64,000 nt of DNA. Source: Skeletonema tropicum. Taxonomy: Eukaryota > Bacillariophyta > Thalassiosirophyceae > Thalassiosirales > Thalassiosiraceae. Position 1 is the first letter of the stretch. Each line of letters begins with the position of its first letter. Positions 3,778 to 61,246 of this stretch are shown piece by piece. The notes below the pieces were generated by a model. That model had not been told where the DNA came from, did no database searches, and saw only the letters and a list, made by a program, of their open reading frames with translations. The stretch is from assembly GCA_037178625.1 (NCBI GenBank), contig CM074143.1:372001-436000 (forward strand). Reading direction: 5' to 3'. The position numbers and the translations under genes were made by a program.

Positions 3778-4412
3778 GGTTGATAGCCTGTGAAGTGGTG
3801 AGAGCGGCCGAAAGAAGTTGTCAATAATATGCCGAAAGATACATTCATGTTGATCACATCATATAATAGTATTATCTCCACTACACACAACACGGGCGCG
3901 CAGCAGCAAGCAAAATAATGCACCGTGATAGTTCCTTACAATAATGATGCACTCACCGTCACTGATTGTATAACAGAGCAGCTCCCGTGTTAGAAGTGAA
4001 TTAGAGGCAAACGATGAACGATTGATCGAGTGCAACGAGCAACGAGCAAGAGTGAAGGAGTGGAGAATGGGGAAATGGGGAAATGGGGAGAGGGGAGTGG
4101 GTTTCGGTTTCGGGCAAGATTTGCTTTGGATTTCTTCAAGCCCTCTTTTAGGCCCTCTTTTAGGTCCTCTTTTACAGGCATTCACGGTTAAATAAACGAA
4201 TAATATATAAAAATTAGAACGTAAGCCCTCTAAGCCCCCTTTCAGCGTTCCCTCTCGACAGAATCATCATCGAGTTGTAAGGAGGGAGGTAAGAAGTAAC
4301 AGCGTTGATGGTACATCTCGACTCTATTAAGGCAATATTACAGATTGATATATGGTAGTAAGAGTTCATTATTATTAATAGCTTCCCATCATCAGTTCGA
4401 GTCGCACTCTTA
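3778..4412. other. Intergenic stretch between LRR gene start and ABC1-kinase end
   Basis: It probably holds the LRR promoter. Visible are a G-rich low-complexity run near 4065-4100, three tandem copies of GCCCTCTTTTAG-like units near 4140-4175, and a short dispersed repeat at 4273-4326. There is no gene. Confidence 0.5.
4273..4326 (+). repeat. Short dispersed repeat, copy 2
   Basis: This is the partner of 488-546. The shared core GAGGTAAGAAGTAACAGCG is exact, and the flanks differ by small indels. It lies in the 3' flank of the ABC1-kinase gene. Confidence 0.7.
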
Positions 4413-6650
4413 CTATAAATCAAGATAATACCATCGTTTCTTCTTCGCCTTACGCTTTTGTTTGTTAGACTTGCCAGTGGCATCTCTCCTTCCATTATTC
4501 CTACCGAGATATGTTCCAACTTCCTCGCTAACAATCCCTTTAGCAAGTATCCTCCCCTCCTTTGTCTTCAAGACATCCCAAACCACTCGCCGTTTGGACT
4601 GTCCTGAAATCAGAGCAGAATCTCTCAGCAATCGTCGTATCTTTGTCCGATCTATCTTTCCATCTTCTGATCGGATCAAACTCTGCAATGTCCGTGCAAC
4701 TACTTCGCTCTTTGATGGATTTTTCAGTAATCTGCTCAATGCGTAAGGGTACATGATAGTCAGTACGTTGAATGAAGGATCAAGTGACTTGGCAATGCCC
4801 TCCAGAGTGCTCAATGCCCGAGCATTGTTTATAAAGTAGGGTGGAAGATCAAACTGAAATCGTGGAACAAGACGAGAGAGGGAATCCAGTAATTTGTCAA
4901 ATTTGAGGTCTGGTATGGCAGTTGCGTCATCCTCACCCGCACCAGCAACTTCAGGATAGAGTAATGAGTTCTCAAATGTAATCTCCAGTGCTTCCGCCAA
5001 AGCGGCTCTTTCCTCCTCATCATCTAGGATATGTTGTGGTATAAGTCGCAGTTCGCCAAACAGACTCGATACGGCATCAACATCACGTGAGAATACTTGC
5101 AATGCAACCGAACAAATGAGTGCATCTCGAACTTGCTCGGGTATAGTACTAACAATCCCAAAATCAAGATAGCCCAACGTGACACTATCATCTTCCAGTC
5201 GAACCTTGAGAAGATTCCCCGCGTGTGGATCGGCATGAAGTATGCCTTCCACGAGCAACTGGCTTAGAGTTGAATCAATGGCCACTTTCACCAGTGCTAG
5301 ATTTTCTTCCACGGTGCTACTTTCACTTTGCCCTTTGGTAGTACTGGTTGTGTTGTTATTACCTCCCGCAACATCGGTTAATTTGACCCCATCAATCCAT
5401 TCCATCACAAGCACATTCTCAGTACACAATTCTGTATACACTTTTGGTACAATGACACTAACATCCTTCGATGTGCCACCCCCTCTTGAATAGAGGCTGC
5501 TAAATTGAGCAATGTTGGATGCTTCGTTTCTATAATCCAATTCTTCAAAGATCCTCGACATGAATTCTTTGGTTGTTGAGACTATCTCTGTGTTGATTAG
5601 ACGAGTCTGTTTCTTGGTTGTTGTGTCGTCATCATCATCAGCACTACTACTTGACGGTAAGGCGGGCAATGATTCTATAAAGTTTGCAAGAGTAAGTAAC
5701 AACTCAGCGTCCCGTTCTACTAGCATCCTCACTCCTGGTCGTTGTACCTTTACTGCAACATCACCCTTTCCAGGTATATTCGCCTTGTACACTTGTCCAA
5801 TACTAGCTGCCGCCACGGGTTCGTCAGTGATAGTTGACACTAATGCCTCCACATCTTTTAATTTCCCATTCGCTTCACGAAGTAACTCCGCCGTAATAAT
5901 TTCCTTTGCCACATCATTATCAAATGGTTCCATATCATCCTGTAGTGTGGATAATGCCCCCGCCAATGAGGGGGGGACAACATCGGGTCTAGACCCGAGT
6001 GCTTGGCCAAACTTAACATAGGTGGGTCCTAATTTCTCCAATGATAATGCTAGACGTTGCGCATGTGATAATGTTATTGATTCGCCATTGGGAGAAGAAG
6101 TTGTGGTGGTAGTTGACCAAAATGCCTCCCATCCTCCATTCTCTTGATTTGGCCAGTTTTGTTTGGTTGCAAGTGATGTTAGTATTGGCGCCATGACTTG
6201 TGAGCCGAGTATTTTTGCGATTTCGAGTGCTCTTTGGAGTGCGGATAGTGCTCTGCTGCTGTCAATATCATTGGTTTCGTCTTTTAAATTGCTTGCGTTG
6301 CTCAATTCATCTATGATGATTGACTCTGCCAACTCTTCCATTGCTGTTGTGCTGGCATATCTACATATTGAATTTGAAACATGCGCCCGACCGTTGCTCT
6401 GAAGAGGATGTGACCATGACGACAATATCTTCTCTTTTGTATTACATTGACGTCTACGAGGGAGCAAGGGCGAGAATGCAGCTCTTTCGCATTTAATTGG
6501 TAGCTTTGATGAAGGACACGAAGATGATTTGTGCAATTGATTATGCGATTGCGGCGTTGCTGGGCTCGTGGCCGCCGTTGAACATACCGCTGCCGCCGAA
6601 ACAGCAATTATCATAACCCAACATTGCCTCCTCATGATATAATTACCCAC
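4413..6650 (-). CDS. ABC1/ADCK (UbiB-family) atypical kinase, probably organellar
   Basis: This is a 745-residue single-exon protein. Family marks are visible in order: the KxGQ-containing KLGPTYVKFGQALGSRPD near residue 210, the lysine strand VAVKVQRPGV near 300, EWIDGVKL near 420, the catalytic loop HADPHAGNLL near 476 and the metal-binding LDFGIVS near 496. ABC1 kinases are atypical ATP-binding proteins that support quinone or prenyl-lipid metabolism in mitochondria and plastids. The long C-terminal extension after the kinase core is typical of the cyanobacterial/plastid subgroup. The N-terminus has a hydrophobic stretch (CWVMIIAVSAAAVCS) that resembles a signal peptide, consistent with plastid import, although no clean ASAF motif is visible. 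It ends in a Lys/Arg-rich tail. Confidence 0.9.
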   Translation of the reverse strand: MGNYIMRRQCWVMIIAVSAAAVCSTAATSPATPQSHNQLHKSSSCPSSKLPIKCERAAFSPLLPRRRQCNTKEKILSSWSHPLQSNGRAHVSNSICRYASTTAMEELAESIIIDELSNASNLKDETNDIDSSRALSALQRALEIAKILGSQVMAPILTSLATKQNWPNQENGGWEAFWSTTTTTSSPNGESITLSHAQRLALSLEKLGPTYVKFGQALGSRPDVVPPSLAGALSTLQDDMEPFDNDVAKEIITAELLREANGKLKDVEALVSTITDEPVAAASIGQVYKANIPGKGDVAVKVQRPGVRMLVERDAELLLTLANFIESLPALPSSSSADDDDDTTTKKQTRLINTEIVSTTKEFMSRIFEELDYRNEASNIAQFSSLYSRGGGTSKDVSVIVPKVYTELCTENVLVMEWIDGVKLTDVAGGNNNTTSTTKGQSESSTVEENLALVKVAIDSTLSQLLVEGILHADPHAGNLLKVRLEDDSVTLGYLDFGIVSTIPEQVRDALICSVALQVFSRDVDAVSSLFGELRLIPQHILDDEEERAALAEALEITFENSLLYPEVAGAGEDDATAIPDLKFDKLLDSLSRLVPRFQFDLPPYFINNARALSTLEGIAKSLDPSFNVLTIMYPYALSRLLKNPSKSEVVARTLQSLIRSEDGKIDRTKIRRLLRDSALISGQSKRRVVWDVLKTKEGRILAKGIVSEEVGTYLGRNNGRRDATGKSNKQKRKAKKKRWYYLDL

Positions 6651-9277: not shown

Positions 9278-11083
9278 CTATCGGAATTCAGGAATCACCA
9301 ACCAATCAGGAATCGACTCAGGCTGGACTTGAACAACCGTATTCATCCTCCTCAATTTGACTGGACGTTTCACAATCGTTTCCTCCACCACAATAACCTC
9401 TTCTGGTTCCTCAATCACCTCCTTGAACAAAAAGTATCCCCAACTGGATATCGATACGAATGTCAATGTTATCAAAGCTCGTATTGTTGCACCAGGTCCT
9501 CCCCATCCAAGCTGGGTTTGACCCAGTCCAGCTGCCGCTCCTAATACTCCACCCGCAGCAATTAACAAGATTTCATCCTCTTGAAATACGGGGTGTAACA
9601 AATCTTCAAATTCGATTGGATTCAACTTTTTCAACCTTTCACAGAGTGTCTGTTCAATATCTAATGAATGTGTCATATACCGATGCAACTCCGGATGTTC
9701 GGTTGGATTATCCGCTGCCTTGGCAATTGCTCTTACCGCAGCCGACAAGATGAATTCTGGTACCGGATAAGGCAACTGCCTCCGTAAGAATGAGTACAAT
9801 TCTCCATTCTCTGCATCCTTGGAGAGTGATTCTAATATTCTCCGTGAATTGAGTACTCGTCCTGCCATGAATGTTCCAAATTCTTCGGAGACTTCGACCT
9901 GTCTTGATTCGAATAGGCCTTGGACTTTGATGGGGCCGACCATTACTGGTTCGACTGGATCAAATAATAGTTTGACTTTAATTGTTGTTGTTGTGTGTTT
10001 GTGTTATTGATTGAATAAAAGGTTTAGAAGATAGGTAGGTATGCAAATCAAAAAGTCCATCAAATGAAAGGTCAATAAGAAGATATAGACAACAAAAAGC
10101 CCATCACAACCAAATCACACCACAGAAAACTCAAAACAATTCTACTCACTAGCAATCCAATTAGTAACATATCCAACCACAGCACCAGCCACAGGAAGCG
10201 TCCAAGGTTTCGGCTTGACAACCCACGCAACCATTTGTATCAATCCCAACAAAAACCCAAATCCCAATCCACTTTCCACCAAAAAGTCCAATTCGACACG
10301 TCCCACCTTTTGAAATAATTCTACCAGTACAACCTTATCACGTACAAATGCTTCTAATACAACTGTTTTTAAGTCCAATATATCCTCAATTTCATCTTGT
10401 AAGTTACTCACCACCCATGATAATATACGTGGTAAAAATGGATGTAATATTCGAACCCATACCTCACCATAATATGGTTCATTCCTCAACTCCTCCTCCA
10501 CAATTGGTACTAATAAATTCGCCAATTCCTCCGGTTCCATCCGTCCAAATGCCTCCTGGACACTTAATAACCGTTCCGTAACAATATGTACCAATCGACT
10601 TGCCATCTTTTCAGTTTTACATGGTACAACACCCTGCCACCCCAAAATACCATAGGGGACGGTAGGATCGTGATAACCGAACGAGGTTCCGGTATATTCA
10701 ATGGGGTAAAAGAGCATTTTCACACCAATGTAATTGGTGTATAGGCCTAGGAAGGCGGCGACTGCCGGGATGGTTGTGTATTGGAGGGGTTTGCTGCGGA
10801 GTTCGGTGTATATTTCGTGAAGGGTGGTGATTTTCTTCTTCTTCTTCTTCTTTGTGGTGGTGGTGATAGTGGTTTTAGTGTTATTGGATGTGAATTGTCG
10901 TCTTATTGTTCGATGTATGGGTGATGTGCGAAATAATGTCATTGATGATGGATAGGATGATGATTTGAAAGTAGCATTGTACATGTCTTGTGTAGTAGTA
11001 CGCTGTCTCGTTGCTGCGTTTAGTCGGCAGCAGCCACTGCCGCATCTAATACGGCGGAGGCTTGACGACATCATGATGACCAA
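9278..11083 (-). CDS. DUF445-family membrane protein, two exons, probably mitochondrial
   Basis: Exons are 11083-10150 and 9975-9278, with a 174-bp intron (donor GTGAGT, acceptor AAAG). Splicing restores TNWIAIKLLF exactly at the join, the signature of DUF445, and gives 543 residues. The motif occurs twice: an N-terminal copy (YTNYIGVKMLFYP, then GWQGVVPCKTEKMA) and the spliced copy (followed by VQGLFESRQVEV). Hydrophobic segments lie beside each copy and near the C-terminus. The first ~80 residues are rich in Arg, Ser and Thr without acids (RRQFTSN), suggesting a mitochondrial presequence. The molecular function of DUF445 is not established. It shares a 224-bp divergent promoter region with the PPR gene. 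Confidence 0.85.
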
Positions 11084-45086: not shown

Positions 45087-45661
45087 GATGTTTGGAAGTG
45101 TTCACAGACTGCACTTTGACCTTGTCTTTTATATTCTTTATACCTGTGAATGCCAAGATGTGGAGGAGGTAGAAGTAGAACGAAACACAAAAAGTTAGAA
45201 TAGTTCATATATTAATAGAGATACATGTCAAAGAACATCAAAAGATATAGTTGATGTCGATGCTGTGTAAAGTTGATGTGATGTACTTGTCATCTACCTA
45301 CATGCCTGTTATACGAGATCTCATGAAACAATTGATTATCCAAATCACAGACACCGTAGCAATAGAAGTTGATTGTGATTGCGCAACGACACCGAGGCTC
45401 CTCTCTTTGGCTATCTTGATCTTGAATTGAATGTATCATCTCCACCTCTACCTCTACACTCTAACTCTACCCATGAGTATCATGCATCAGCGAAATAATC
45501 CCAGCAAACGGCACAAAACACCAGCCGTCAGCCGGCCGTATCATACTGTATTTCCACCAACACTGAGACCGAGATCGAGATGACAAGAAGAAGAACAAGC
45601 TACTACACGACTCTCTACTCACCTCGCTCCTCTGCCGAATTGTGACTGATGTGGCTACTTA
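45087..45661. other. PS-A upstream flank, homologous to PS-B flank
   Basis: Blocks shared in order with 59255-59790 include TTTGGAAGTG, TACCTGTGAATG, GGAGGTAGA, GAACGAAACA, AGAACATCAA and ACGACTCTCTACT. It therefore probably holds the PS-A promoter and leader. Confidence 0.6.
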
Positions 45662-46037
45662 AGTGTATGGTCAGGCTCCCCAATTTTGGCTAAATTATCT
45701 CTTCTCAGCCGCCACTGGGGCTAACCTACCCTTTTATAGGCTTAAAATGCTCCTCTCGATGAGCTTGTTCCAAATCCATGAGTTGCTTCCAAAAATAAAA
45801 AAATATTTTGTTAGCCCCATTCCCTAGCTTGACTTGGGGGTTAACCCCAAAAAAGATCCCTTTTCCCAATTTACCCTGGTCTTCAGCTCCATATCGCACA
45901 TTCATTTCACCATGATTCAAAAAGCAAGCCATGGATTTGAACTCCTCTCACTCTCAGCTTTCCAACGCTATGCTGATCATTTCTTGAAGTCAAATACTCG
46001 CTGAGAAGAGATTTGCTGGGGAGGGTGACCATACACT
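45662..46037. mobile_element. 376-bp MITE with TA target duplication
   Basis: TA flanks both sides (45660-45661 and 46038-46039). Imperfect inverted repeats of about 40-50 bp begin AGTGTATGGTCA at the left and end TGACCATACACT at the right; both contain CTCCCC and ATCTCTTCTCAGC in the inner part, with about 10 bp of indel. No transposase. The TA duplication suggests the Tc1/mariner group. Confidence 0.8.
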
Positions 46038-46585
46038 TAGCCATGTTGGTTTAACGTTTATGGCATTGTCATGTTGTACATGCACTCTCCCAGCCAATGC
46101 CGCGCAAAACGATGCTTAAAATTTCTGTTCATCTCGCTCTTCATTCCTTCGGTCCTCCACTTTTATATAAGTACGATCACTTTTACATCTCATTTTCTTG
46201 AGGTGTCCTTTTATTTTCTTGTAATTCAAAGAGCTCATGTGGTACTGAGAATTGAAGAGGGTCATTTCAATTTCACGGAGGAATCAGTAATAGAGTGTTG
46301 GGGCTCGGAGTAAAATCGAAACTTCCTCTTCTCATTCTCAAAGAGCAGAAAATCTTTGAACCAATTCACTTTGGAATTAGTATTAAGAGGGGCAGTTTAC
46401 AAATAAGTATATATATTTGTCTAGCTAGCTCTCAAAAACCCTCTCTAGAGAGGCCCAATGAATCGAGTCTTAAAGGAATTTTCTTCTCCTTCTTGCCTCG
46501 CTGCGACTTTTGACGAAAGACTCACTACAATTACCGGTTTAATTTTTGACGAAAGACTCACTACGAACGGTACTAAAACCGGAAG
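46038..46585. other. Left flank of the DIRS-like element
   Basis: No gene. Two copies of GACGAAAGACTCACTAC lie 37 bp apart at about 46513 and 46550, close to the element border. Confidence 0.5.
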
Positions 46586-47068
46586 GTGTGTCATCTGTAC
46601 AGCGTCAAGCAAGTGGTATGAGTCAGGGAGAAGAACAATAACCATCCATCTAACCTTAAGTGAACTAATCAACCGTGAACCAACCAATACATTTCCTTTT
46701 GGAAATGACTTATCAAACCACAGAGCATCGTAGCAACCAACGATAACTCTGACTAACTATTTGGGGGGGGAATCGCCCAGCTCGATTTCCTATCCATTCG
46801 AAGTATCAAAACATTTCGTAGAAGGGATGTGCCGAATCTCTGAGTGATACCTGCAAAGATATCTCTCTTCTGACACCTTGCTAAAAGGATCCGAGTCACA
46901 GTCTTGGCTGTCTCCCAGAACAAAGAAAGCATGGCCTCATGTGCATCTGTACTTTGCTTTGCTCTGTTTGAAGTAGAGACAGCGGAGAATGCAAGGCAGA
47001 ACTTTTACTCAATCAATGATTGCCAATCAGCAGGTTTAACGACAGACCACTTTCAGAACCGCTTCTGA
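46586..47068 (-). repeat. Split direct repeat B2 (483 bp)
   Basis: It is the same as 47401-47883 from GTGTGTCATC to CGCTTCTGA, including a G8 run. It forms the 3' terminus of the element in the coding direction. Confidence 0.95.
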
Positions 47069-47118
47069 AAACCTTAAACTAACCTCAAAAAATAGGGCGT
47101 GGAGGGTGGGGGAAAAAA

Positions 47119-47400
47119 TCAAATCTAAGCGGGGCTGCAGCTCTAATAGAATGATCAACTTCGTCAGTTGTGCAGGCAGCAGAGACCCGAACCGATGTAA
47201 TTGCTTCCAACAGCGTAGTTGTGAGCACTTACTAATGTTTGTTTGATGTGATGATTCTTTGTCTTCATGCGAGGAGAGATGTCAAAATGTCAGCCCCTAC
47301 AGTTTGGCGGACAGACATACTCTTTTCGCTCACTGGCTCGATCCACATGGCTTGTCCTCTTTCCCGTTTCCACACCGGCTTAACTTGGGCGTACGAGATG
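47119..47400 (-). repeat. Split direct repeat A2 (282 bp)
   Basis: It matches the 5' terminus 56187-56468 from TCAAATCTAAGCGG to TACGAGATG, with one difference seen (A at 47157, C at 56225). It abuts B1 with no gap. Confidence 0.95.
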
Positions 47401-47883
47401 GTGTGTCATCTGTACAGCGTCAAGCAAGTGGTATGAGTCAGGGAGAAGAACAATAACCATCCATCTAACCTTAAGTGAACTAATCAACCGTGAACCAACC
47501 AATACATTTCCTTTTGGAAATGACTTATCAAACCACAGAGCATCGTAGCAACCAACGATAACTCTGACTAACTATTTGGGGGGGGAATCGCCCAGCTCGA
47601 TTTCCTATCCATTCGAAGTATCAAAACATTTCGTAGAAGGGATGTGCCGAATCTCTGAGTGATACCTGCAAAGATATCTCTCTTCTGACACCTTGCTAAA
47701 AGGATCCGAGTCACAGTCTTGGCTGTCTCCCAGAACAAAGAAAGCATGGCCTCATGTGCATCTGTACTTTGCTTTGCTCTGTTTGAAGTAGAGACAGCGG
47801 AGAATGCAAGGCAGAACTTTTACTCAATCAATGATTGCCAATCAGCAGGTTTAACGACAGACCACTTTCAGAACCGCTTCTGA
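47401..47883 (-). repeat. Split direct repeat B1 (483 bp)
   Basis: This is the internal copy of the 3' terminus, directly after the recombinase ORF in the coding direction and fused to A2. Confidence 0.95.
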
Positions 47884-47994
47884 CTTCCCCCCACCTAAGT
47901 TCTCCCAGATGCCTCACATACATCTGGCGGCGTAGAACTATCCCTACTCGATTGCTTTGCTCATCAACCCCGACTGCGTTCGGCGATACAGCCT

Positions 47995-49653
47995 CTAAAG
48001 AGCGTAGGAATAGCGCCACGTTACCGGCATTTGTCCCAGCACACCAGCATAGAGATCCCTCATCTCAAAATTTGGTCTCTTGCCCTTCGCATTTTCGACT
48101 GTCCTCCATCTATTCATTTTTGCTTGGATTGTTGAAGATATACCGGCTCGTGTTGTTCGGGCTTGGGCTGTTTTCCGTAGAGTACGCGAGATACCAAAAG
48201 CCTCGTTCACTTCGATCTTATCTTCAATGAGATCTGTTTGTGCCTGAATCTCCTCCAAATACCTCAAAAACATGGCATTGTACTCTGACGATGATGTAAG
48301 CTTTCCATTCGGATAAGCGAATGCAGGACCACTCCTCCTACCTTCTTCCAATCCGACTCTAACTAGCTCTTCTATCCACCAACGCACCTCAATTCCTGAT
48401 CTTGTCGTGTTAGCAAGGGCTATCTGGTGCGTGTCCTCACCTGTTTCGCCTTTAACCTTTCCAAGCAGCGCTATAACCACATGAGGGAGTGATTCCGCTA
48501 CATCCTCGTCAAAGTGCTCTTTCAAGTTTGCCGGGATTACTCCTATTTTGCCCCTATCCAAGTGACGGATCAATCCAGCTAGATCAGCCATGAAACCTTC
48601 ACAACCACGCAGAGATGCTGCTGTGCACATCGTAATAAACGCTCCAAATTTTGTGAGTTCGTTCTTCTCCGATTTGAATTCCGTAGCAGCTATATCTCGT
48701 TTAACTCTGCGGAGCAACTCTAATATCACCCTAATGGACACCTCTTTGTTGGCTTTGGACTCGGAGCCCATTCTGTATTCACAACCTTTGCCAAACAGTG
48801 AGAAAAATTCCGATTGCGTAGGACACCTAGTTGGTCTTACTCTGCCTTTTCCTACCGAAAAACAAGCCACTTCAATAAGACCCTTTGGAGATGAATCATA
48901 ATTTCTAGTCGCTGTTGATCGAATTTGCCTCAGCGTTTCGTACTGGACCGCATCTTCGGTCCGACCTACTGCTTCCAAGGAATACAATATCATATCCAAA
49001 GCAACTCCCATCCCCACCAAGTCCACTGGTGGTAGCGGACCACGAGGCTCAATTGTAGGAGTCTTTCCATACTTGGCATTGAATGATAAAATCCGTCTTG
49101 TTCTGCCAAGGTGACCTTTAATCGTATACTTAGATTTTCCAGTCATAGCGTCCAGATTTACCCGTCGAATACAAGCTACTAGAACGTCATCCAGACCTGG
49201 TTGAGGTGATCTTTTCTCCAAAATCCTCATCCAACAGCACTCACATAGAAAAGGAATTGATAAGTGAGCCCCGTCAACGCCGTGATTGATGCGGTGCTCC
49301 ATTTCCTGTTGTTTGTACCATGGGTTATCAGCTTCATCCTTCATTGCTTTGATTGGGAATTTCAGATCGCAACTCGTCCCTAGGCATTCGTAACAATCCG
49401 CGTGCCATGCTTTCTGACAACTTGCATAACCTAGGATTGAGCTGGAGAAGTTTGCGCAGAATATCCCCTCCATCGGCTTGACCATCTTGGAGCACTTGTC
49501 GCATGTCCCTTTCCATTTCCAGAAGGAGAGGAGCTCGTTTGAGTTGCCAGGGTCTGTGATGTGTAAAAGGAAGAACAACACCCAACCAAAGGGGTTCAAA
49601 CATGTTAGATGGCCAATGAGCAGACCCGGCCGGGATCTCACAAGAAAAATCAC
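47995..49653 (-). CDS. DIRS-type tyrosine recombinase with N-terminal Cys/His cluster
   Basis: The frame is 552 codons; the true start is uncertain, since the first ~320 bp overlap the RT ORF in another frame. Residues ~45-130 hold a zinc-binding-like cluster (CDKCSKMV, CQKAWHADCYECLG, CECCW) unlike most DIRS recombinases. The C-terminal half has TAASLRGCEGF near 346 (first catalytic Arg) and TLRKTAQARTTRAG, MNRWRT and MRDLYAGV near 490-536, corresponding to the second Arg block and the nucleophilic Tyr. The usual H-x-x-R His position appears replaced (SRTLRK). The enzyme would insert a circular DNA copy without target duplication. Confidence 0.8.
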   Translation of the reverse strand: MIFLVRSRPGLLIGHLTCLNPFGWVLFFLLHITDPGNSNELLSFWKWKGTCDKCSKMVKPMEGIFCANFSSSILGYASCQKAWHADCYECLGTSCDLKFPIKAMKDEADNPWYKQQEMEHRINHGVDGAHLSIPFLCECCWMRILEKRSPQPGLDDVLVACIRRVNLDAMTGKSKYTIKGHLGRTRRILSFNAKYGKTPTIEPRGPLPPVDLVGMGVALDMILYSLEAVGRTEDAVQYETLRQIRSTATRNYDSSPKGLIEVACFSVGKGRVRPTRCPTQSEFFSLFGKGCEYRMGSESKANKEVSIRVILELLRRVKRDIAATEFKSEKNELTKFGAFITMCTAASLRGCEGFMADLAGLIRHLDRGKIGVIPANLKEHFDEDVAESLPHVVIALLGKVKGETGEDTHQIALANTTRSGIEVRWWIEELVRVGLEEGRRSGPAFAYPNGKLTSSSEYNAMFLRYLEEIQAQTDLIEDKIEVNEAFGISRTLRKTAQARTTRAGISSTIQAKMNRWRTVENAKGKRPNFEMRDLYAGVLGQMPVTWRYSYAL

Positions 49654-52600
49654 AAACTTTTCGATACAGACGTCTCCAGCGAGGTGTCATGAGCCTTGGA
49701 ATAGCGATGATGTGATAAGTATCCGTCCTCTTATGTCTAGCTTTCAGTAGCTCTTCTAACGCTGCATCGGCTGCCGCTGGAGGTGGGCACCACAGGTGCA
49801 GTTGATTTGGTTTCTCGTGTGCTGGTATCCACACACCCGCCTTATCTTCCTTTCCACCACATATCCCATGACCCTCGACAAACCATTCCTCTGGTGTAAG
49901 TTGACACAAGGTCGGGTCGTTTGTCCATTCTCGGATCCACTCCAGCAGTGGTTCGTGTCTTTCCACTGCCGACTTTCCCAAGTCAACAAAGTCAAGCATA
50001 GGCTTTCCCGCCATAACTCCCTCAAGAAGACTTCCCCGTGATCCACCATCCGTGCCCTGGGCAATCATACGAGTACCCGCCACGTGAATCAAATGGATTG
50101 TTAGGTTGTAATCCATCTCCAACTTCCGCAATCTAACTACCAACTCATGTAAGAGTTTTGATTTTGATGACCCTCTATAGAAACACGATTCCGCGGTACT
50201 GTTGTCCGTGAACAAAAAGAATTCAGCGTTGTAGAGTCTCCCAGCTGCGGCTTCTTCCTCACACGTCTGCACAAGATTGCACAGTTCCTTGTAATTTGAA
50301 CTCTCCGACTCTTCATCACGGCCCCATACTCCTATTCGATAATTTACTTGCTCGTGATAACCAAGAGTGCCACAAAAACCCTTACCAGACGCATCGCCAA
50401 AGCCATACACCGCGGTTACTACCGTCTTCGAACGTGCAACCCTAATTGGCGGCGAGTCTGACTCAGACAATCGCAATAAGGCCCTCAGATCATCAATAAA
50501 ACGCAGAGCTGGTGTGGTAAATCCAGAGGGTGGAGCTCGGGGTGTTTCATCCAACGCCGGATCTACCTCATCAGTCTCTTCGGGCGTAGTAGATTCTGAC
50601 GCAGTAGTGGTAGTTGCGTCGTCTGGAGAATTGGCGTCTAGTTTGAAACTCAATAGTGTATCATCCACATCACAAAACTCTTCCTCCATATCATCATAAT
50701 ATTCATCAACACTGAAATCATCATTTTCCTGCGCTTCACGATTTTTTAACTTCCATCCTTCCGCGTCTCTGTTACCCCGCCACATCTCAACGGTCAAGTG
50801 AAACCCCTTAAGGTAGGGTGTCATCGCTGGGTAACTGCTACAAAGATGCTGACAGAAGCCCCGATCACTCAGAAGTTCCTTGTGATCTAGCTCTTTATCA
50901 CCTCTCTCCAATCTCTCAACCCATTTGAAGAGAATTCCTTTGAATCTCTTCCACTTCTCTTCTGAAGTTAAAACACACACACCCAACTCCGGGATAGTAT
51001 GCACCACCGATCCTGCCCATGAACCACCTTTCCGGTTCATCACTCTCAACTTGCGAGCAGCGTCCTGAATACCAAGATAGGCTTGTATATATGCAAGTCT
51101 ATGACCAGCCTCCCAGACCAGCTCTCTCGTGGCTCCAGACAGTCTCTCGTCATCCACAAACGTAAAAATTTCACATGCAATTAGTCCATCTTTTCTAATT
51201 TTCGAAATCCAAGATATACTCGGATCGTAATCTACGCTCCCCGGCAGATTTAATCTAACGTGGTCCCATTGGAACGGATTTCCTTCCGAGTGACGATCAC
51301 CTTTGGCAACTTCCTCTACTACCAATGCAGTCTTAATGGAGTTGTATGGGGATGGCTTAAACCCCATCAGGCATCGTCCCCAATGCACCCACTTACTCCC
51401 AGCCATTTTTAATATTTCCGCATCCTCCGCTTCAGTGCCATCAAATAGACTTTCCAAGTTTAAACCCGTGTAAGGCCACACACGCCGGTCCAATGGAAAG
51501 TTTAGAAACATGTCACCGATGTCCCTATCCATCATCCACGTGCTTGCATCCACATACCGCACCAGAGTGTCAACGGTCGGCAACCAGAAGGATGGCGCCC
51601 ACACTGCGTCATTTAAGTTGTTGGCAGTGGCATCATAGACAATTCGATAATCCGTGTCCGTTTTAGGGACCGCGAAGTACCTAATCAACGATCTAAGTCT
51701 GATGCCCGACCCAAACAAATAACCCCGTTTGATCACCTTACCAACCTTGGAACGCAGGACTTTCCGAGCTTGCTCATCATTGACTGGAGGTTGACCACGC
51801 ATTGATTTGGGTCCATCCTTTTCAAAGAACACAGGTACTCCATCCTTGGCAATACCTTGATAAAATATTGGGAAACGAAAATAGTGAATGGCACTCCCGG
51901 ACTTGTATTCAAACCAGTTACATTCAGTTGAATGCCACATAATATTCGATAAAGCCTGGACCTCAATACCAATTTCGGTAGGCCTACCATTCTTCATTCT
52001 AGGAAGATTGAACCACTCTCTACCGTAATTTTCCCGCAAGCGCTGAATGCAATCATCATACAATCTCCTCCAGAAACGCTTCAGGCCCCATTCACGAAGC
52101 ACACTAACGGCATGATCCACACATCCGTCACAGCGATCCTCTCTTGGCTTCGCACCCTCTTTGATAACATCATTCCATAGGTGGATGGGAACTTCCGCAT
52201 CATCTGCCTTAGCCGCCTTTAGTTCATCTTTGGCTTCACGTATACTAGTCTGGCACTCCTCTCGCACCTTATTCACCATCTCCGCAGTTACCTCATCGCT
52301 GGATTTATCTTGCGCGTCAGGCATTGGAATGTCATTAGCCAACTCCGTCTCTGCAAATTTTTCAACGTCAGTTGATGCGGACGTCAAATCATTGTTATCC
52401 ACATCACTGGCTGATCCGTGAGAATCGGACATCACACTCATAGACACCCCTGATACTGTCTCCCTGTTTACAGAACCTTCCAACCTTTCAAAGTCAGTTG
52501 ATACGGACATCAAATCATTGTTATCCACATCACTGGCTGATCCGTGAGGATCGGACATAACACTCATAGACACCCCTGTCACCACCTCTTGGACGCCTTC

Positions 52601-53626
52601 ACTCTGAACGGTTGCAATTTGTGGAGTATCTTCGCTAGATACTATCTCCCTGTTTACAGGCCCTTCCAACCCCCCTCCTAGTCCCCACAATTGCTGGGAA
52701 AGAGAAGTGACGATGTCAGGAGAAACGGCCGACTCAAAAGGCAGCGTATCTACAATGGACAACGCAGACTCAAGTAACGTCTTGTCATAGTCAGTGGGAA
52801 GAGAGTAGACCCGCAGAGCTTCTTTGAATGCTAGCCTTCGAACGATATAAGTATTTGGAGCCTTGGCGAACACAGACGGACATAAAATCTTAGTGTCTGG
52901 TGCGTAGCAAGGCAGAAGTCCGTCATGCCGAAGGATAGCAAGGCCCTTCTGCTTCACCGCAAAACGTACAGCTGGTTTCCTGGATTCATCAACCAACGGA
53001 GGCGGGGGAGGTCTTGATGGAAACTTTCCCTCCAGAGCAACATTGAGACAATGTGAAAGGTTTCGTCGTACGTTGGGAGATATTTGAGGCAGTTCATCAG
53101 ACGAGCAAATGTCCTGTCCAAAACCCCACACATGAACCGCAGAAGTGCGCCCTCCAAAGTCAGCATGCGCCGTAATCAAAGTAGACAAACCTAACCTTTT
53201 GAGGTAACCCTTAGCAGAAGCGCATTTGCGTGCTAGTTGATGATATCCCGAACATGACCGAAACTCAGGCTCTACAACAATAATAGACCTATCTCTTCCT
53301 GACATCGGAATAAAAGTCATCACCGACGTGATAAAACGTTGAGTTCCCGAAATCGCATAGATACAACCAGTAGGAGGAGGATTATCAGCCAACTCCCTGC
53401 AACATACATCATTCCATGTCCTCCTTGATTTAGATTTAAAATGACGATGAAGATTTGCAGGGAAGTAGGCACCGGCGAGTGGTAGGTCATGAGCGGAGGC
53501 AACAACTAACCATGATGGCCATTGCTGAGCAATAATCAGCAAGGGAAGCTGAGGGCTTATACGTCGCAACGTCCCACGAATCACCGGTACATACGCCCCG
53601 CCGCCGCTAGACAACGGGGGTAACCC
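49334..53626 (-). CDS. Reverse transcriptase - RNase H polyprotein of the DIRS-like element
   Basis: The frame is open from the codon after a TGA at 53627-53629 and has no ATG near its start; it is about 1,430 codons long. RT motifs: YRIVYDATANNLN, motif A MDRDIGDMFLNFPLD near residue 695, and motif C FTFVDDERLSG near 820, where F-V-D-D replaces Y-x-D-D. RNase H: GFGDASGKGF near 1070, ESSNYKEL, FLFTDNSTAES near 1136 and GTDGGSRG near 1190, giving the acidic set. Upstream ~500 residues have no clear protease and include an acidic/Ser region with a near-duplicate SVMSDPHGSASDVDNNDL block. The 3' end overlaps the recombinase frame by 320 bp. Confidence 0.88.
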   Translation of the reverse strand, partial: GLPPLSSGGGAYVPVIRGTLRRISPQLPLLIIAQQWPSWLVVASAHDLPLAGAYFPANLHRHFKSKSRRTWNDVCCRELADNPPPTGCIYAISGTQRFITSVMTFIPMSGRDRSIIVVEPEFRSCSGYHQLARKCASAKGYLKRLGLSTLITAHADFGGRTSAVHVWGFGQDICSSDELPQISPNVRRNLSHCLNVALEGKFPSRPPPPPLVDESRKPAVRFAVKQKGLAILRHDGLLPCYAPDTKILCPSVFAKAPNTYIVRRLAFKEALRVYSLPTDYDKTLLESALSIVDTLPFESAVSPDIVTSLSQQLWGLGGGLEGPVNREIVSSEDTPQIATVQSEGVQEVVTGVSMSVMSDPHGSASDVDNNDLMSVSTDFERLEGSVNRETVSGVSMSVMSDSHGSASDVDNNDLTSASTDVEKFAETELANDIPMPDAQDKSSDEVTAEMVNKVREECQTSIREAKDELKAAKADDAEVPIHLWNDVIKEGAKPREDRCDGCVDHAVSVLREWGLKRFWRRLYDDCIQRLRENYGREWFNLPRMKNGRPTEIGIEVQALSNIMWHSTECNWFEYKSGSAIHYFRFPIFYQGIAKDGVPVFFEKDGPKSMRGQPPVNDEQARKVLRSKVGKVIKRGYLFGSGIRLRSLIRYFAVPKTDTDYRIVYDATANNLNDAVWAPSFWLPTVDTLVRYVDASTWMMDRDIGDMFLNFPLDRRVWPYTGLNLESLFDGTEAEDAEILKMAGSKWVHWGRCLMGFKPSPYNSIKTALVVEEVAKGDRHSEGNPFQWDHVRLNLPGSVDYDPSISWISKIRKDGLIACEIFTFVDDERLSGATRELVWEAGHRLAYIQAYLGIQDAARKLRVMNRKGGSWAGSVVHTIPELGVCVLTSEEKWKRFKGILFKWVERLERGDKELDHKELLSDRGFCQHLCSSYPAMTPYLKGFHLTVEMWRGNRDAEGWKLKNREAQENDDFSVDEYYDDMEEEFCDVDDTLLSFKLDANSPDDATTTTASESTTPEETDEVDPALDETPRAPPSGFTTPALRFIDDLRALLRLSESDSPPIRVARSKTVVTAVYGFGDASGKGFCGTLGYHEQVNYRIGVWGRDEESESSNYKELCNLVQTCEEEAAAGRLYNAEFFLFTDNSTAESCFYRGSSKSKLLHELVVRLRKLEMDYNLTIHLIHVAGTRMIAQGTDGGSRGSLLEGVMAGKPMLDFVDLGKSAVERHEPLLEWIREWTNDPTLCQLTPEEWFVEGHGICGGKEDKAGVWIPAHEKPNQLHLWCPPPAAADAALEELLKARHKRTDTYHIIAIPRLMTPRWRRLYRKVCDFSCEIPAGSAHWPSNMFEPLWLGVVLPFTHHRPWQLKRAPLLLEMERDMRQVLQDGQADGGDILRKLLQLNPRLCKLSESMARGLLRMPRDELRSEIPNQSNEG

Positions 53627-54535
53627 TCATTTCTTCAGATCGTTCTTTTTTACTACGCTATCGAGTGAATCAGAGACTGCCTTTGCCTGACTCTTTGCAG
53701 CAACAGCATCCCTCTTCGCCTCAAGACCCTTATCTAACGCATTTTTTGCCTCCTTTTCCAACTTGGTCAACTTAGAGCCAACTCCTGCGGCTGAATTTTC
53801 ACCAGTCTTGCGGGTAAGGAAACGAACAAACGCTGACTGAATCCTTGGATGATGAGCAAAACCTCCATTCGCAAATTCTCCGACCAGTTCATGAATCTTG
53901 AGGGCGACCCACACGTAGGTCGCCAAACGTTCGGCCGGATCGACTTCTTCAGACGTGTCATGGATTAATACACGCTTAGCATGCCAGTACTCAAAGATCA
54001 ACTGGGCAAATTCGGAAAATAACAAAAGAATGTCATCCACCGGGAGCTGCAACGATTCCAATATCTTCCTCTCACTATCACAATGATTCATGAATCCCTT
54101 GTGAAAAGATATGCTGCGATTCACCATCTCGCCAGACAGAGTCTTCAAAACGGGGGCCTTACTCAAATGATAATTGGCATACGTCCCAACTTTAGTACCA
54201 GCTAGAGCCACCTCTGTAAGGATTTTCTCCTTCTTGCCCTTTCCGGCTGCAGCACCTTCACCATAGAATATGGACTCAGATTTGAACGCATCAATAGGTT
54301 GTCCAGGGTCGTAAGGATCATCCTTGGTGCCAGTGTAAGGAGGACAGCATGCGTGGGGGTGACTACTCTGTTCAATACAGAGAATATCCGGAACGGTCAG
54401 GTCTGGATTGAGGAGTAGATGCTCTCGCTTACTCTTTGGAGTCAGTGTCGTAGTATGTGAGAATATGGTCATAGGATCCACAAACGCAGCTAGCCCCTTG
54501 CCCTTCGGGTTCTCATTGCGAATAACGGTCAGCAC
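53627..54535 (-). CDS. Gag-like frame ending in TGA in phase with RT
   Basis: This 302-codon frame reads from a GTG; it is open further upstream to a TAG near 54562, so the start is not known. It contains CCPPYTGTKDDPYDPG and a helical RLATYVWVALKIHELVGEF block, and ends in an Ala/Lys coiled coil. No zinc knuckle. It is placed where gag/capsid proteins lie and lacks enzymatic motifs. The stop is a TGA followed by GGG, and the same frame continues directly into the RT ORF. Confidence 0.65.
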   Translation of the reverse strand: MLTVIRNENPKGKGLAAFVDPMTIFSHTTTLTPKSKREHLLLNPDLTVPDILCIEQSSHPHACCPPYTGTKDDPYDPGQPIDAFKSESIFYGEGAAAGKGKKEKILTEVALAGTKVGTYANYHLSKAPVLKTLSGEMVNRSISFHKGFMNHCDSERKILESLQLPVDDILLLFSEFAQLIFEYWHAKRVLIHDTSEEVDPAERLATYVWVALKIHELVGEFANGGFAHHPRIQSAFVRFLTRKTGENSAAGVGSKLTKLEKEAKNALDKGLEAKRDAVAAKSQAKAVSDSLDSVVKKNDLKK

Positions 54536-54575
54536 CTCAGCCTCTGAAGCAAGAATACCATCCTAAACTAATCAC

Positions 54576-55061
54576 TTATTTATCCATAAAAAAAAAAAAA
54601 AAAAAAAAATGATCTCCAAGGCGAACACCGCCCTTAGCATCCACCGTATTCTCAACTGCCTCGATTCTCTCTTCCAACGACAGCAGTTTCCGGAATAAAT
54701 CACCGAGAGTGAACTTTTGACCGTCCACAACGAGAGACAGATCTGTACGAAGGCAGCCGTTTCCATCCAATAGAGTAGAGACAGCAGCACCTGGTGACAA
54801 ACCTTGAGCGAATGGAGCAGAGTTGATGTTACCCGAGGACACCTTCAGAGATAGTTCCTTGAACTTGATAGCGATCTCCTCATTTGCTGCCATGATAAGC
54901 TCCTCCAAATCACCATCAAGAGAATTGAGCCGAGTAGCCAGATCATTAATACTTGCCTCACTCGCCTTATCTTTGCACGAAATGGAGATGGCATGAATAG
55001 CATTTGCCAACGAACCATGATTTGCTGCAATCCAATCCAAATTACCCATGGCAACACGCAC
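54576..55061 (-). CDS. Middle gag-like frame, coiled coil, ends in a poly-T tract
   Basis: This 161-codon frame (GTG first, internal ATG 12 bp later) has NLDWIAANHGSLANAIHAI and a long helical region (DGDLEELIMAANEEIAIKFKEL). Its end is a run of Phe codons from a 22-nt T tract (A at 54588-54609 on the plus strand). The upstream frame is open past the stop of the preceding ORF, so the two probably were one ORF, one base apart. It is likely a piece of one gag protein. Confidence 0.6.
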   Translation of the reverse strand: MRVAMGNLDWIAANHGSLANAIHAISISCKDKASEASINDLATRLNSLDGDLEELIMAANEEIAIKFKELSLKVSSGNINSAPFAQGLSPGAAVSTLLDGNGCLRTDLSLVVDGQKFTLGDLFRKLLSLEERIEAVENTVDAKGGVRLGDHFFFFFFFMDK

Positions 55062-55066
55062 TTCCT

Positions 55067-56101
55067 CTACCAGTCTCTGGCTTCGACAAACTTGGTTCGG
55101 TAGGACGCCTTAACTTCATCCAGCGATGTATCGAAAGCGTCCAAGTATTGACGATGAGACGCTTGTACTGCTAAAATAGCTGAGATAATGAGAGCAGTCT
55201 TCATTGAGGTTCCGTCATCCACCAACTCCGACATTTTTTCATCTGGTAATGGTTCTAATTCTATACCAGCCTTCCTGAGAGTTTCACCGACCTCCTCCTC
55301 TACCTTAACTTTGCCTTCCTCCTCTTCCTCCTCCACTTCTTCCTCTTCCTCCTCTTCCTCCTCCACCTCTTCTTCTCCCTCCTCATTATCGATCCACAGG
55401 TCTTCCTCATTCTCCTCATCCCAATTCATTTTGCGTTGATTGATGTTCATTTTGCGTTCATCAATAGTCTGCTGGAACCTGTTAAACGTTTCCGTCCAGT
55501 AGGATAAGGTGTCGGAACCGCCGAACAACAAGGGTATCATGTGTGGCAAGACGTCCGACGCCATCAACTTTGGATCGGGTAACACCGATGTTTTCGCACC
55601 ATCAACAAGCTGCAAGAACCACGCAGCCTCACCTTTGTGAAGAAGATTCCATTTATTGGTTGCATGTCTACCCACAGTGCACGCAGGCTTAATGCACATC
55701 CTCTGGGAGCTTCCCTGACCTCTAGGTACGACAACACCTCCACAGACACCAAACGACACTTTTGTCGGCACCACCATGACATCTAGGTCCGTCTGACTAT
55801 TCATGGCCAAATCAGTCTGTTTCTTAATACGAGTCGACAACTCACCTTGCAAACCCCCCACCTTTCCGCCCCCGTCAAAGACGGAAGAAACAGAAGAAGT
55901 AGGTCCGACACTTCGGGGGGCTCCCTGCTCATGGAGCAGCGGTTGAAGGGAAGCCCTCTCAGCCCGAGGCGACGGAGCAGAAGACACCGAAACGGTATCA
56001 GCAGCAGTAAACTGTCCTGCTGTAGAGCTCCGGAGACGCATGAGACGTGCCTGACGGCGCCTCTCATCATCAGTTTGAGAAGAAGTGGTGGACATAGTCA
56101 A
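55067..56101 (-). CDS. First gag-like frame of the DIRS-like element
   Basis: This 344-codon frame begins 86 bp inside the A1 repeat border. The N-terminus is Ser/Arg-rich (ERRRQARLMRLRSST), the centre has MCIKPACTVGRHATNKWNLL and AWFLQLVDG, then a pure Glu tract (EEEEEEEEEVEEEE) and a helical end DGTSMKTALIISAILAVQASH. No enzyme motif; gag-like by position. It stops 5 bp before the next frame, which is shifted by one base. Confidence 0.65.
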   Translation of the reverse strand: MTMSTTSSQTDDERRRQARLMRLRSSTAGQFTAADTVSVSSAPSPRAERASLQPLLHEQGAPRSVGPTSSVSSVFDGGGKVGGLQGELSTRIKKQTDLAMNSQTDLDVMVVPTKVSFGVCGGVVVPRGQGSSQRMCIKPACTVGRHATNKWNLLHKGEAAWFLQLVDGAKTSVLPDPKLMASDVLPHMIPLLFGGSDTLSYWTETFNRFQQTIDERKMNINQRKMNWDEENEEDLWIDNEEGEEEVEEEEEEEEEVEEEEEEGKVKVEEEVGETLRKAGIELEPLPDEKMSELVDDGTSMKTALIISAILAVQASHRQYLDAFDTSLDEVKASYRTKFVEARDW

Positions 56102-56186
56102 CGTTGGAAAGAAAAATTTAGACTATGTGGTCGCAAGATGAAAACTGTGAGGAAGCGAAGCAACGAAAAATCTTTGATTTTAGAAT

Positions 56187-56468
56187 TCAAATCTAAGCGG
56201 GGCTGCAGCTCTAATCGAATGATCAACTTCGTCAGTTGTGCAGGCAGCAGAGACCCGAACCGATGTAATTGCTTCCAACAGCGTAGTTGTGAGCACTTAC
56301 TAATGTTTGTTTGATGTGATGATTCTTTGTCTTCATGCGAGGAGAGATGTCAAAATGTCAGCCCCTACAGTTTGGCGGACAGACATACTCTTTTCGCTCA
56401 CTGGCTCGATCCACATGGCTTGTCCTCTTTCCCGTTTCCACACCGGCTTAACTTGGGCGTACGAGATG
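56187..56468 (-). repeat. Split direct repeat A1 (282 bp), 5' terminus
   Basis: This is the partner of 47119-47400. The outer border is TACGAGATG followed by flanking AAGTCACGG; the two outer borders share only a G, consistent with recombinase-mediated insertion. Confidence 0.95.
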
Positions 56469-58035: not shown

Positions 58036-59244
58036 TTAACGGAGGAATCGAGCAGGGGCACTTTTCGATCCCTTACTAGAACTACATTTTCCTGACTTAG
58101 CCGAATTGCTCTTGCTAGATTTGGAACCCGGCCTTGAGCTTGGCACAACTGAAGGAGCACTAGAACCTGGGGTGGGAGCAACGGTTGGTCGAGTGGATGG
58201 TGCAGTGGAAACTGATGGATTCAACGAAGTAGAAGGTGCAGTGGAAACTGATGGATTCAACGAAGTAGATGGTGCAGTGGAAACTGATGGATTCAACGAA
58301 GTAGAAGGTGCAGTGGAAACTGATGGATTTAACGTTTTGGAGGGTGCACTCGAAACTGATGGTGCACTGGAAATTGATGGACTCAACGAAGTCGAAGGTG
58401 CACTAGAAACCGATGGTGCACTGGAAATTGATGGACTCAACGAAGTCGAAGGTGCACTGGAAACCGATGGTGCACTAGAAACCGATGGTGCACTGGAAAT
58501 TGATGGACTCGACGAAGTCGATGGTGCACTAGAAACCGATGGTGCACTGGAAATTGATGGACTCAACGAAGTCGAAGGTGCACTAGAAACCGATGGTGCA
58601 CTGGAAATTGATGGACTCAGCGAAGTCGATGGTGCAGTAGAAACAGATGGATTCAACGAAGTCGATGGTGCGCTGGAAATTGAAGGTGGCAAAGAGATAT
58701 CCAAACCGCCACAGTCGTCAGTACAGTACCAAATGTTCGCTCCACAATTTTTGCCATTACAATTGCAGCATACTGCAGTGTTCTGCCCATTTCCATTGCA
58801 TTCTGACTTGTCGTTTTCAAAGCATCTCTCGCCGTCTGGTTGACAAGCAGATTGGTTTGCATTGCAAGAATCAGGAGGTTGAGCACTTAGGTAAAAATCA
58901 GGAATAGAGCTTCCTGGAGCTGGTGCCGGAACCGTATCTGGAACAACCTCATCAAGAGGAGTAGCCATAAGAGGTTTACTCACAACAAGGGGTGACAAGC
59001 CACCACATTCATCGTCTGCCACCATTTGAGCAGCTGAAATCTTTTTATGATGCTGAACCTTCGATACGACCGCAATAGTCGACGCAAAAGCAGCGACGAC
59101 GATTGACAAGTAGGCAAGTCTCCGGAAACTCAAGCCGCTCATTTGAGTCAAGCTGACTTCTACAGCAGTAGCATCTTCTTCAACTTCAGGTGCGGCGTTG
59201 TCGAAGTTGGTTGGATTTTGGAGTTCGTTATCGCTAGCGAGCAT
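58036..59244 (-). CDS. PS-B: shorter paralogue of PS-A with one Cys module
   Basis: This is a 402-residue protein from ATG 59244 (MLASDNELQ), chosen over an upstream Met at 59328 because it aligns with the PS-A start MFAIDNAF. It shares with PS-A an acidic tail (EEDATAVEVSL), a signal anchor (LAYLSIVVAAFASTIAVVSKVQ), KISAAQM, a SIPDFY step and one Cys module (~121-181; CCNCNGKNCGANIWYCTDDC). Then come 12-18-residue Pro/Ser/Ala repeats (SSAPSTSLSPSI) and a Lys/Ser tail (SKSSKSNSAKSGK) ending ARFLR. It is single exon here. KxxK-like spacing in a Ser-rich context recalls silaffin-type silica proteins, but no family match can be shown. Probably secretory; function unknown. Confidence 0.82.
   Translation of the reverse strand: MLASDNELQNPTNFDNAAPEVEEDATAVEVSLTQMSGLSFRRLAYLSIVVAAFASTIAVVSKVQHHKKISAAQMVADDECGGLSPLVVSKPLMATPLDEVVPDTVPAPAPGSSIPDFYLSAQPPDSCNANQSACQPDGERCFENDKSECNGNGQNTAVCCNCNGKNCGANIWYCTDDCGGLDISLPPSISSAPSTSLNPSVSTAPSTSLSPSISSAPSVSSAPSTSLSPSISSAPSVSSAPSTSSSPSISSAPSVSSAPSVSSAPSTSLSPSISSAPSVSSAPSTSLSPSISSAPSVSSAPSKTLNPSVSTAPSTSLNPSVSTAPSTSLNPSVSTAPSTSLNPSVSTAPSTRPTVAPTPGSSAPSVVPSSRPGSKSSKSNSAKSGKCSSSKGSKSAPARFLR
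58170..58680 (-). repeat. Pro/Ser/Ala-coding repeat array in PS-B
   Basis: 36-bp units (STAPSTSLNPSV type) and 54-bp units ([18 protein letters not shown] type) are repeated about a dozen times. The unit differs from that of PS-A, so the arrays expanded independently after duplication. Confidence 0.9.
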
Positions 59245-61246
59245 GATGATCAAGTGAAGTTTGGAAGTGATCACGTGAAAGCTGTTTTTCTTTGTATGCC
59301 TGTAATGGGGGAGGTAGAGACGAAACATTGAAACATAAGAGGGTGAGTGTGTAGTAAATAGAATTACGCGCAGATGAACATCAAGAGATAGTCATGTTGT
59401 GTGTAATTTGATGCGCGATGTAATGATGATATTATGTTCACCACATCATGCGTCTATGCTGCACAGCTGTGCAATTTATGGGAGGAGAACAAATACTCAA
59501 ATACAAATACGTACCTTAGGCGTAGGGATTGATTGGTACAATAATTGGAGACAGCCGCAACAGCTACAGCGGAGGGCTCTCTTGGTTGTGTTGAATTTGA
59601 ATAATCAACTCTGTCATTGTATCAACATTGTCGAGACAAAGACGTGTTACGTTGTGTGGAAAATGAACGAAGACGAGGTAGTGTTGGTGGATCAGAGTTA
59701 GTTACAGATGGAAAGAAAGAAGAATATATATCAATGTTACCAACGACAACGACTCTCTACTCTACTTCTACTCACCTCCTTTAATTATTTATGATAACGG
59801 CGGACAATTATTATGCTATCGTTGCGTCGAGGAGCGGTTGGCCACCGTTTTTGTCAATTGAGGATTCGCGTTTCGCGTGAGAGCGGAAATAATCCGGAGT
59901 CACGTCGATCCTGTCGGCAGTTTCTTCAATTCAAAAAGTTAACCGGTACTCTGGGGCCTCAAATTTGGCAAAGGAATCAATAATGACAGAAATAATTTTT
60001 CCCTTCCCTTCTCAATGAACAGAAAATATTTGAAGCGGTCAAAAATACACATATGTAGGAATAAGTACTTTTGGGGGGCAGTACTGACCCCTGAAAGTCG
60101 GATGGAGAATCCACTGGATCATTTTCACGACTCCTATGTTCCTTCATAGGAATCAGTTAGGTTTCAAATGGAATGTGAACTCAGGCAGTTCACGCGTGCA
60201 GTTTTAAATTTGACTTGATAAGATAAACGGTCAGTCGTCGAGTCAGCTCTCTCTCTAGCTAGAGATAGAGTACTGTTCATTTGAGTTCAGTTTGCAAGTC
60301 GAATTTGAATATCGGGCCTATGGTGGCGAATAAGGTATCGATAAGATCCTAATGGCCAAGGGATGAAGATTACCACTGCAAGTAAGGTCAAAACCCTTCT
60401 AGTTACTGTGTGATTGAGGGTCGTAGGAAGCCATTTTTCACCATGGTTTGGGTCCATTTTTGATGGTTGAAGGCATTTGAGTACCGCATGCACGTAGGAA
60501 TCAGCTAAAAAATAAACGGTACTGGTTTTTATCTCAACTCCAAAAACTTCAAGTTGGAGCAAGTTGGACGAGGTTGCTTAATTGTGCGACGCTTAGCACT
60601 TTTGCTACCCACATAATCACAAACGGCGGTCAGATAGTCGCGCGGAGAGAGAACTGACGAGCGCGACGATATAAAGACGGAGCTGAAACTCCCACCAGAA
60701 AAAAAGTTAAGCGTCGCACAAAATAGGTCAATAGATATTCATTACAAATGGACAGTACATCGGTCAGGTTAGATACATTTGAATTTGGGTACCTATGCAT
60801 GCAGGTACGATACTTACTTAGGTATGCATGAGATGACTGTGTCAAAAATATATATATATTCCTAAAAAGGAGCGAGCGAGAACCGAGAACTTGAACCAGG
60901 AGTGGGTGAGTGTTGGAACTGTGAATCGGGGTTCTCTAGACAACACAAAACGTGAGAAACCCAACAAGAAACTATTTTACTGTGACGTAGTAAAAGGCTC
61001 ATCTTGAAGAGCCAAGATATGGAGGAAGACCTCAAGATACGGAGGATGAGCACCATGAGCCTCAACAGCCAAGGATGCTCTTACTTTATCAACTATGTTA
61101 GTGCTTCGTGAATAACATAGTAATACGTTTGTTTACTGGATAGAGTATCTTGTCGGTGGTAATAGGCTGGAGCGGTAGTCTTCGTCGTTGGGCCCTGACC
61201 GGATTTTATCTTCAACACATAGTTGATAAAGTCACAGGTTGTCAGA
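59245..61246. other. 2-kb stretch: PS-B upstream flank, then leader of a Copia element
   Basis: 59255-59790 resembles the PS-A upstream flank. An inverted-repeat unit lies at 60582-60719. The 5' LTR of the Copia element should lie near 60850-61200, but I cannot fix its ends or a primer-binding site; TGTTGGAACT at about 60912 is a possible start. CTTTATCAACTATG (61084-61097) is exactly inverted at 61218-61231, just before the gag start. Confidence 0.5.
60582..60719. repeat. 138-bp foldback with 14-bp perfect ends
   Basis: TTGTGCGACGCTTA at 60582-60595 is exactly inverted at 60706-60719; a T/A-rich run follows each inside. A second inner pair GTCGCGC and GCGCGAC lies within. It could be a tiny MITE or a structured RNA. 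No clear target duplication. Confidence 0.65.

Follow-up and report, generated by a model that had tools for sequence, protein, structure and literature searches.

Several retrotransposons combine split direct repeats with a reverse transcriptase (RT), an RNase H and a tyrosine recombinase (YR), among them PAT, Toc3 and Kangaroo (PMC4157794). The dinoflagellate element SymbioDIRS-Dnmt3 is described as having the order A-coding-B-A-B, a cytosine methyltransferase within Pol and a separate YR open reading frame (ORF); its methyltransferase keeps the key residues, and CG methylation has been demonstrated (PMC5890265). Among stramenopiles, Cafeteria burkhardae carries Ngaro elements, typically ~6 kb long, with the order A1-[ORFs]-B1A2B2, YR and RT/RNase H, together with isolated partial copies (PMC8547959), and Ectocarpus has DIRS/Ngaro and DIRS/PAT-like families (PMC12477816). 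The kinetoplastid element VIPER is also arranged A1...B1A2B2, and its non-autonomous derivative SIRE corresponds to the A2-B2 region (PMC6681497). Here we describe a related element in a window of 64,000 nucleotides from the diatom Skeletonema tropicum (assembly GCA_037178625.1, contig CM074143.1, positions 372,001 to 436,000 of the forward strand; positions below are those of the window).

The window element is very probably a full-length tyrosine-recombinase retrotransposon of the DIRS order, with split direct repeats, YR-mediated integration at a G and a catalytically dead C5-cytosine-methyltransferase fold in pol. We assign it to the DIRS order because it has an RT with RNase H, a tyrosine recombinase instead of a DDE integrase, and no target duplication. 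It shares features with all of the systems above, the likeness to SymbioDIRS-Dnmt3 and to the Ectocarpus families being one of description. As in SymbioDIRS-Dnmt3, the RT aligns badly with Pfam, but most catalytic and S-adenosylmethionine-site motifs of the methyltransferase are lost. At 9.9 kb it is larger than the Cafeteria Ngaro and has an extra pol domain, whereas the account of the Cafeteria element in PMC8547959 mentions no methyltransferase and the descriptions of the Ectocarpus families in PMC12477816 include no cytosine-methyltransferase domain. Unlike SIRE, the non-autonomous families of S. tropicum keep the full order A1-interior-B1-A2-B2.

Repeat layout, borders and target

The element occupies positions 46585-56468 on the minus strand (9884 bp, counting the G at both ends), as delimited by its repeats and borders. 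Going by the numbering of the contigs, this is chromosome 17 (element at C17:418585-428468). Self-comparison yielded two repeat pairs: A, 285 bp (A1 at the 5' end, 56184-56468; A2, 47116-47400), with two differences (283/285 identical), and B, 484 bp (B1, 47400-47883; B2 at the 3' end, 46585-47068), with none. A2 and B1 overlap by the single G at 47400, and a unique spacer of 47 bp (47069-47115) separates A2 from B2. In the element, the long frames are on the minus strand, giving the coding order A1-ORFs-B1-A2-spacer-B2. This is the split arrangement proposed in an earlier note, made by a model from the letters of this DNA; its positions were correct to within a few bases, its repeat lengths of 282 and 483 bp are measured here as 285 and 484 bp, and the diatom-like host it had surmised is indeed a diatom. 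The note had also argued that the repeats are not long terminal repeats (LTRs), and the layout, together with the empty sites of relatives described below, excludes an LTR element. It had named assembly duplication as a possible source of the repeats; this is unlikely, because the same layout recurs with different sequences at four further loci (C18, C84, C21 and C10). The repeat pairs differ at only 2/769 positions (0.26%), which suggests a young insertion.

The note had proposed searching the genome for further copies with the same border G. Eight insertions were compared: the window element and copies of two non-autonomous families, NA1 (five) and NA2 (two), whose ends are like those of the window element and which have no similarity to its proteins. 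All eight have GGTG at the left end and G at the right end. The inner junction shares one G in the window element and at C18, C84 and C21. For the NA1 insertion at C14, the joined flanks with exactly one G match an unoccupied paralogous site (140/141), and the joined flanks of the NA2 insertion at C84 with one G likewise match such a site (141/141). Both empty sites show integration without target duplication and with one G shared, so that the non-autonomous families and these two sites fix the recombination product at single-base resolution. The flanks of the window element itself, ending in ACCGGAA on the left and beginning with AAGTC on the right, have AA as their sole match, which we take as chance; no flank match of this kind is present at C14, C2, C3 or C18. 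The absence of a target duplication, claimed in the note, is thus borne out by the lack of a clear one in the element flanks and by the two empty sites.

The C14 target is a ~180-bp inverted-repeat element with many copies. It is represented at C23:973380-973560, with long inverted ends and dozens of near-identical copies, and the C14 copy is broken by NA1. The left flank of the window element matches elsewhere mainly in a ~390-bp repeat (best 40 of 193 candidates). Among the scored candidates, this repeat (45660-46042) recurs at 37 or more further places, each longer than 330 bp and 87-97% identical.

The YR ORF (47998-49686, minus strand, 563 aa) and the pol frame have 350 nt in common. Its predicted structure has a Cre/XerH-like tyrosine recombinase fold, and the catalytic residues are present. 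The front of the ORF is rich in Cys and His (~49237-49515, minus strand); for this putative zinc domain, LIM-domain chains appeared only among weak Foldseek matches (E 0.3-1.8), with none in the structural-neighbour list inspected. In pol, the RT region (approximately residues 565-966; 50729-51934, minus strand) contains the catalytic Asp residues in RDIGDMF and FVDD, and the RNase H region (approximately 50012-50434, minus strand) has a D-E-D-D set. In homolog alignments, whose row counts take in the window element, the RT motif A/C residues and the RNase H acidic residues are both invariant in 32/32 rows. The RT-RNase H and recombinase recognised in the note are therefore present; the Cys/His-rich front of the YR, the methyltransferase-like domain of pol and the non-autonomous relatives had escaped it.

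Several observations weigh against the reading of the window element as a DIRS-order element integrating at a G. A copy at C15, from another lineage, has different end letters. No empty site was found for the window element itself (best 40 of 215 candidates), the join being off by one G; for six of the eight insertions there was no match across the flank join, which says little, given that the best 40 of 215 candidates were scored. Neither RT nor YR is placed in a named family above the cut-off by Pfam, PDB-sequence or profile matches: RVT_1 matched 1/32 rows (E 0.045), and the best PDB sequence match, an RT/RNase H chain, is weak (E 1.4). The RT is assigned by its motif residues, fold prediction having covered other domains. 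Finally, the inverted arms at the B/A junction, which a recombinase core site should have, stand out in the window element (12/3268 positions equally good) but are unremarkable in NA1 (343/1400 positions as good) and NA2 (156/1819); a palindromic recombinase core at this junction is only suggestive.

Group placement and intactness

A putative Dam-type methyltransferase characterises the DIRS/PAT group, and Kangaroo is defined by an inverted YR with the internal repeats between methyltransferase and YR (PMC4157794). The note had seen the PAT/Kangaroo plan; Kangaroo has to be dropped, as the YR of the window element shares the strand of pol and precedes the internal repeats. PAT and Ngaro have the repeat plan in common and are separated by the Dam-like methyltransferase; the window element has the split A1-B1A2-B2 order of PAT and, as in Ngaro, a sense YR followed by the internal pair. 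It is quite possible that the element belongs with Ngaro rather than PAT, its methyltransferase-like regions being unrelated to the Dam-like enzyme of DIRS/PAT: internal repeats behind the YR are described for Ngaro (PMC4157794, PMC8547959), which is known in stramenopiles from Cafeteria (PMC8547959) and Ectocarpus (PMC12477816). On the other side, the repeat layout does not separate Ngaro from PAT, and a conserved domain following RNase H could be a remnant of a Dam-like methyltransferase. This domain (approximately 49487-49819, minus strand), delimited by conservation, contains W-x-PPP and has no Pfam match. Going by resemblance, we take it to be a possible counterpart of the DIRS Dam-like methyltransferase. 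No named DIRS, PAT or Ngaro protein was among the matches listed (at least 120 of 628 in one search), and no named reference element was among the 61 matches of a protein search with the YR profile.

The region upstream of pol is open in three minus-strand frames, called gag-like from position alone in the case of the first (55070-56122, 351 aa). The second (54579-55109, 177 aa) stops just past 22 consecutive T (54588-54609, coding strand), and the third (53630-54562, 311 aa) ends in a UGA behind which pol is read in the same frame. The first piece matched only its own locus in a genome search. The third has four genome relatives at 29-36% identity; two of them form one open frame each (791 and 690 aa), and the other two have frames of 181 and 267 aa. 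The pol ORF (49337-53626, minus strand, 1430 aa) has no Met in its first 102 residues and has TTG where its close relatives P0058-P0060 begin with Met; it may start at this TTG or be reached by read-through of the in-frame UGA. This copy is probably disabled. The note was right about the near-unchanged repeats, but its suggestion that the element may be active is doubtful in view of the three gag frames and the TTG. That the element is merely a fossil, a dead copy retained by chance, is an unlikely explanation, even though the split gag-like region, the missing ATG of pol and the lack of a second genomic match to the first gag piece would fit it: the repeats have accumulated just two differences, and the pol and YR frames are open throughout. 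Other elements whose ends are similar are likely to have been mobile in the recent past: seven NA1 copies are 98.1-99.6% like an eighth, at C14, over 1.7 kb.

The methyltransferase-like domain of pol

The N-terminal domain of pol (residues 19-325; 52652-53572, minus strand) has a C5 cytosine methyltransferase fold in its predicted structure, with a Rossmann core, methyltransferase topology and a motif IX region. Catalysis looks lost from the residues, whose correspondence was taken from sequence and strand order rather than from a printed structural alignment. The nucleophile position is Thr in the window element and Cys in 2/70 homolog rows, and the Asn of the ENV motif is kept in 2/68. In these pol domains, the motif I loop has the form WPxxL, and GGxTxA stands in the QxRxR region. 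Thus, the fold is present, and the DNMT3-type catalytic conservation of SymbioDIRS-Dnmt3 is not. The Arg, Glu and Pro of motif IX are retained in 76/76, 76/76 and 75/76 rows. Two observations speak against a loss of catalysis: the Glu of ENV is retained in 39/72 rows, and in homolog P0070 the three catalytic-loop positions are occupied by Cys, Glu and Asn; its motif I loop is WPSWL and its QxRxR region GGCTSA. An active or conditionally active methyltransferase acting on cDNA, like that of SymbioDIRS-Dnmt3, would fit the clear fold, the motif IX conservation, P0070 and the active DNMTs of dinoflagellate DIRS elements (PMC5890265), but is very improbable given the scarcity of the nucleophile and the ENV Asn and the altered motif I and QxRxR regions, those of P0070 included.

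Many relatives in public sequence collections have the methyltransferase-like domain at the front of pol. A late gain in this lineage was suggested by the pol at C10, which is without the domain; we dropped this reading because the pol at C12, which belongs to the same lineage, carries the domain (methyltransferase profile match at E 6e-15 when two sequences were searched) and the C10 pol, seen against it, is shortened by the first ~310 residues. The dead domain is most likely a DNA-binding or protein-docking module that would act in cDNA handling or target choice. A conserved non-catalytic version would show that a methyltransferase fold can be useful to a retrotransposon without methylation, through binding, as a decoy or in target choice.

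More tentatively, the window element may represent a large diatom clade of split-repeat retrotransposons, widespread in public sequence collections and invisible to Pfam, with the dead cytosine methyltransferase as a permanent component of pol. The domain would then be the retrotransposon equivalent of DNMT3L, retained for DNA or chromatin binding or for interference with host methylation, and a Cre-like recombinase would insert the circle at a suitable G. The habitat of the clade is probably marine plankton. It can be missed in the annotation of diatom genomes because Pfam does not detect it. The open-access literature consulted, subscription papers such as Poulter and Butler 2015 being outside this scope, yielded neither a dedicated account of such a diatom element nor one of a DIRS-order pol with an inactive cytosine methyltransferase. 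Retrotransposon-borne cytosine methyltransferases with conserved catalytic residues are reported from dinoflagellates and one charophyte (PMC5890265), and, according to an opinion paper, stramenopiles too have Gypsy and DIRS elements that encode Dam and Dcm (PMC6338049). One diatom genome is listed with 1.11% 'Gypsy/DIRS1', without detail (PMC8613185). The genome of S. tropicum CNS00166 is given as 49% transposable elements, in a main text from which the word DIRS is absent (PMC11032307).

Relatives in the genome and a possible cycle

Genome searches gave 31 matches with YR and 47 with pol, several of which fall in one element; none was found in the viral contigs searched. In a quick tree built from 70 YR rows, for which long-branch warnings were issued, the YR of the window element pairs with the protein P0001, at 90% identity and with a support of 98; the S. 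tropicum sequences, 15 rows in all, fall in four places. A second element with the full layout, at C10:862600-874500, has a gag-like frame of 690 aa, pol of 1136 aa and YR of 561 aa; its A repeats (454 bp) have one difference and its B repeats (181 bp) two differences and one gap. At positions 9349-10449 of this locus, the leader frame holds extra RT motif A-like fragments (tblastn).

The non-autonomous families have an interior of ~2.4 kb without recognisable ORFs. NA1 at C18 is 4.3 kb long (B2-A2-B1-interior-A1), with repeats of 607 and 314 bp that are 100% identical; NA2 at C84 and C21:1187900-1192600 has repeats of 536 and 323 bp (99.4-100% identical). In two of the NA1 locus maps, the best 40 of 60 and the best 40 of 59 candidates were scored. 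The complete NA1 layout occurs at C18 and, with insertions, at C20, and a shortened B-interior-A layout at C14, C2, C3:1024k and C8:2026k (with a partial A at the last). Copies at C21:698k and two on C7 start inside A2, deleted copies exist, for example on C5 and C10, and at C7:300636 A1 runs straight into 78 bp of B, behind which comes other sequence. The A1 of NA2 at C84 is interrupted by an insertion of ~1.4 kb (positions ~4311-5689 of the locus), which carries a 328-aa reverse frame of unknown kind. The interiors of the two families are similar (~79% over 2.3 kb), although neither has a long frame or protein match. A coding origin of the interiors was rejected, as tblastn with 177 homologs and five element frames found no match at E 1e-4. 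Mobilisation in trans by recombinases of the window-element type would most simply explain these families, because they lack recognisable ORFs yet have ends like those of the window element.

In the window element, an RNA from A1 through B2 would be reverse transcribed by pol, and the cDNA would close to a circle with a B/A junction like the internal one, as in published models of split-repeat elements (PMC6681497); closure would be possible because A2-B2 repeats both ends. The Cre/XerH-like recombinase of the element could then cross the circle junction with a target G, and no bases would be duplicated because the crossing involves this single G.

Two minor features complete the locus. The linker before the RT contains a tandem duplication of ~102 bp (52351-52578, minus strand, 91% identity). 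Outside the element, a 451-aa frame at 58036-59391 (minus strand) is rich in PSxSxAPS repeats, presumably in the style of a diatom surface protein.
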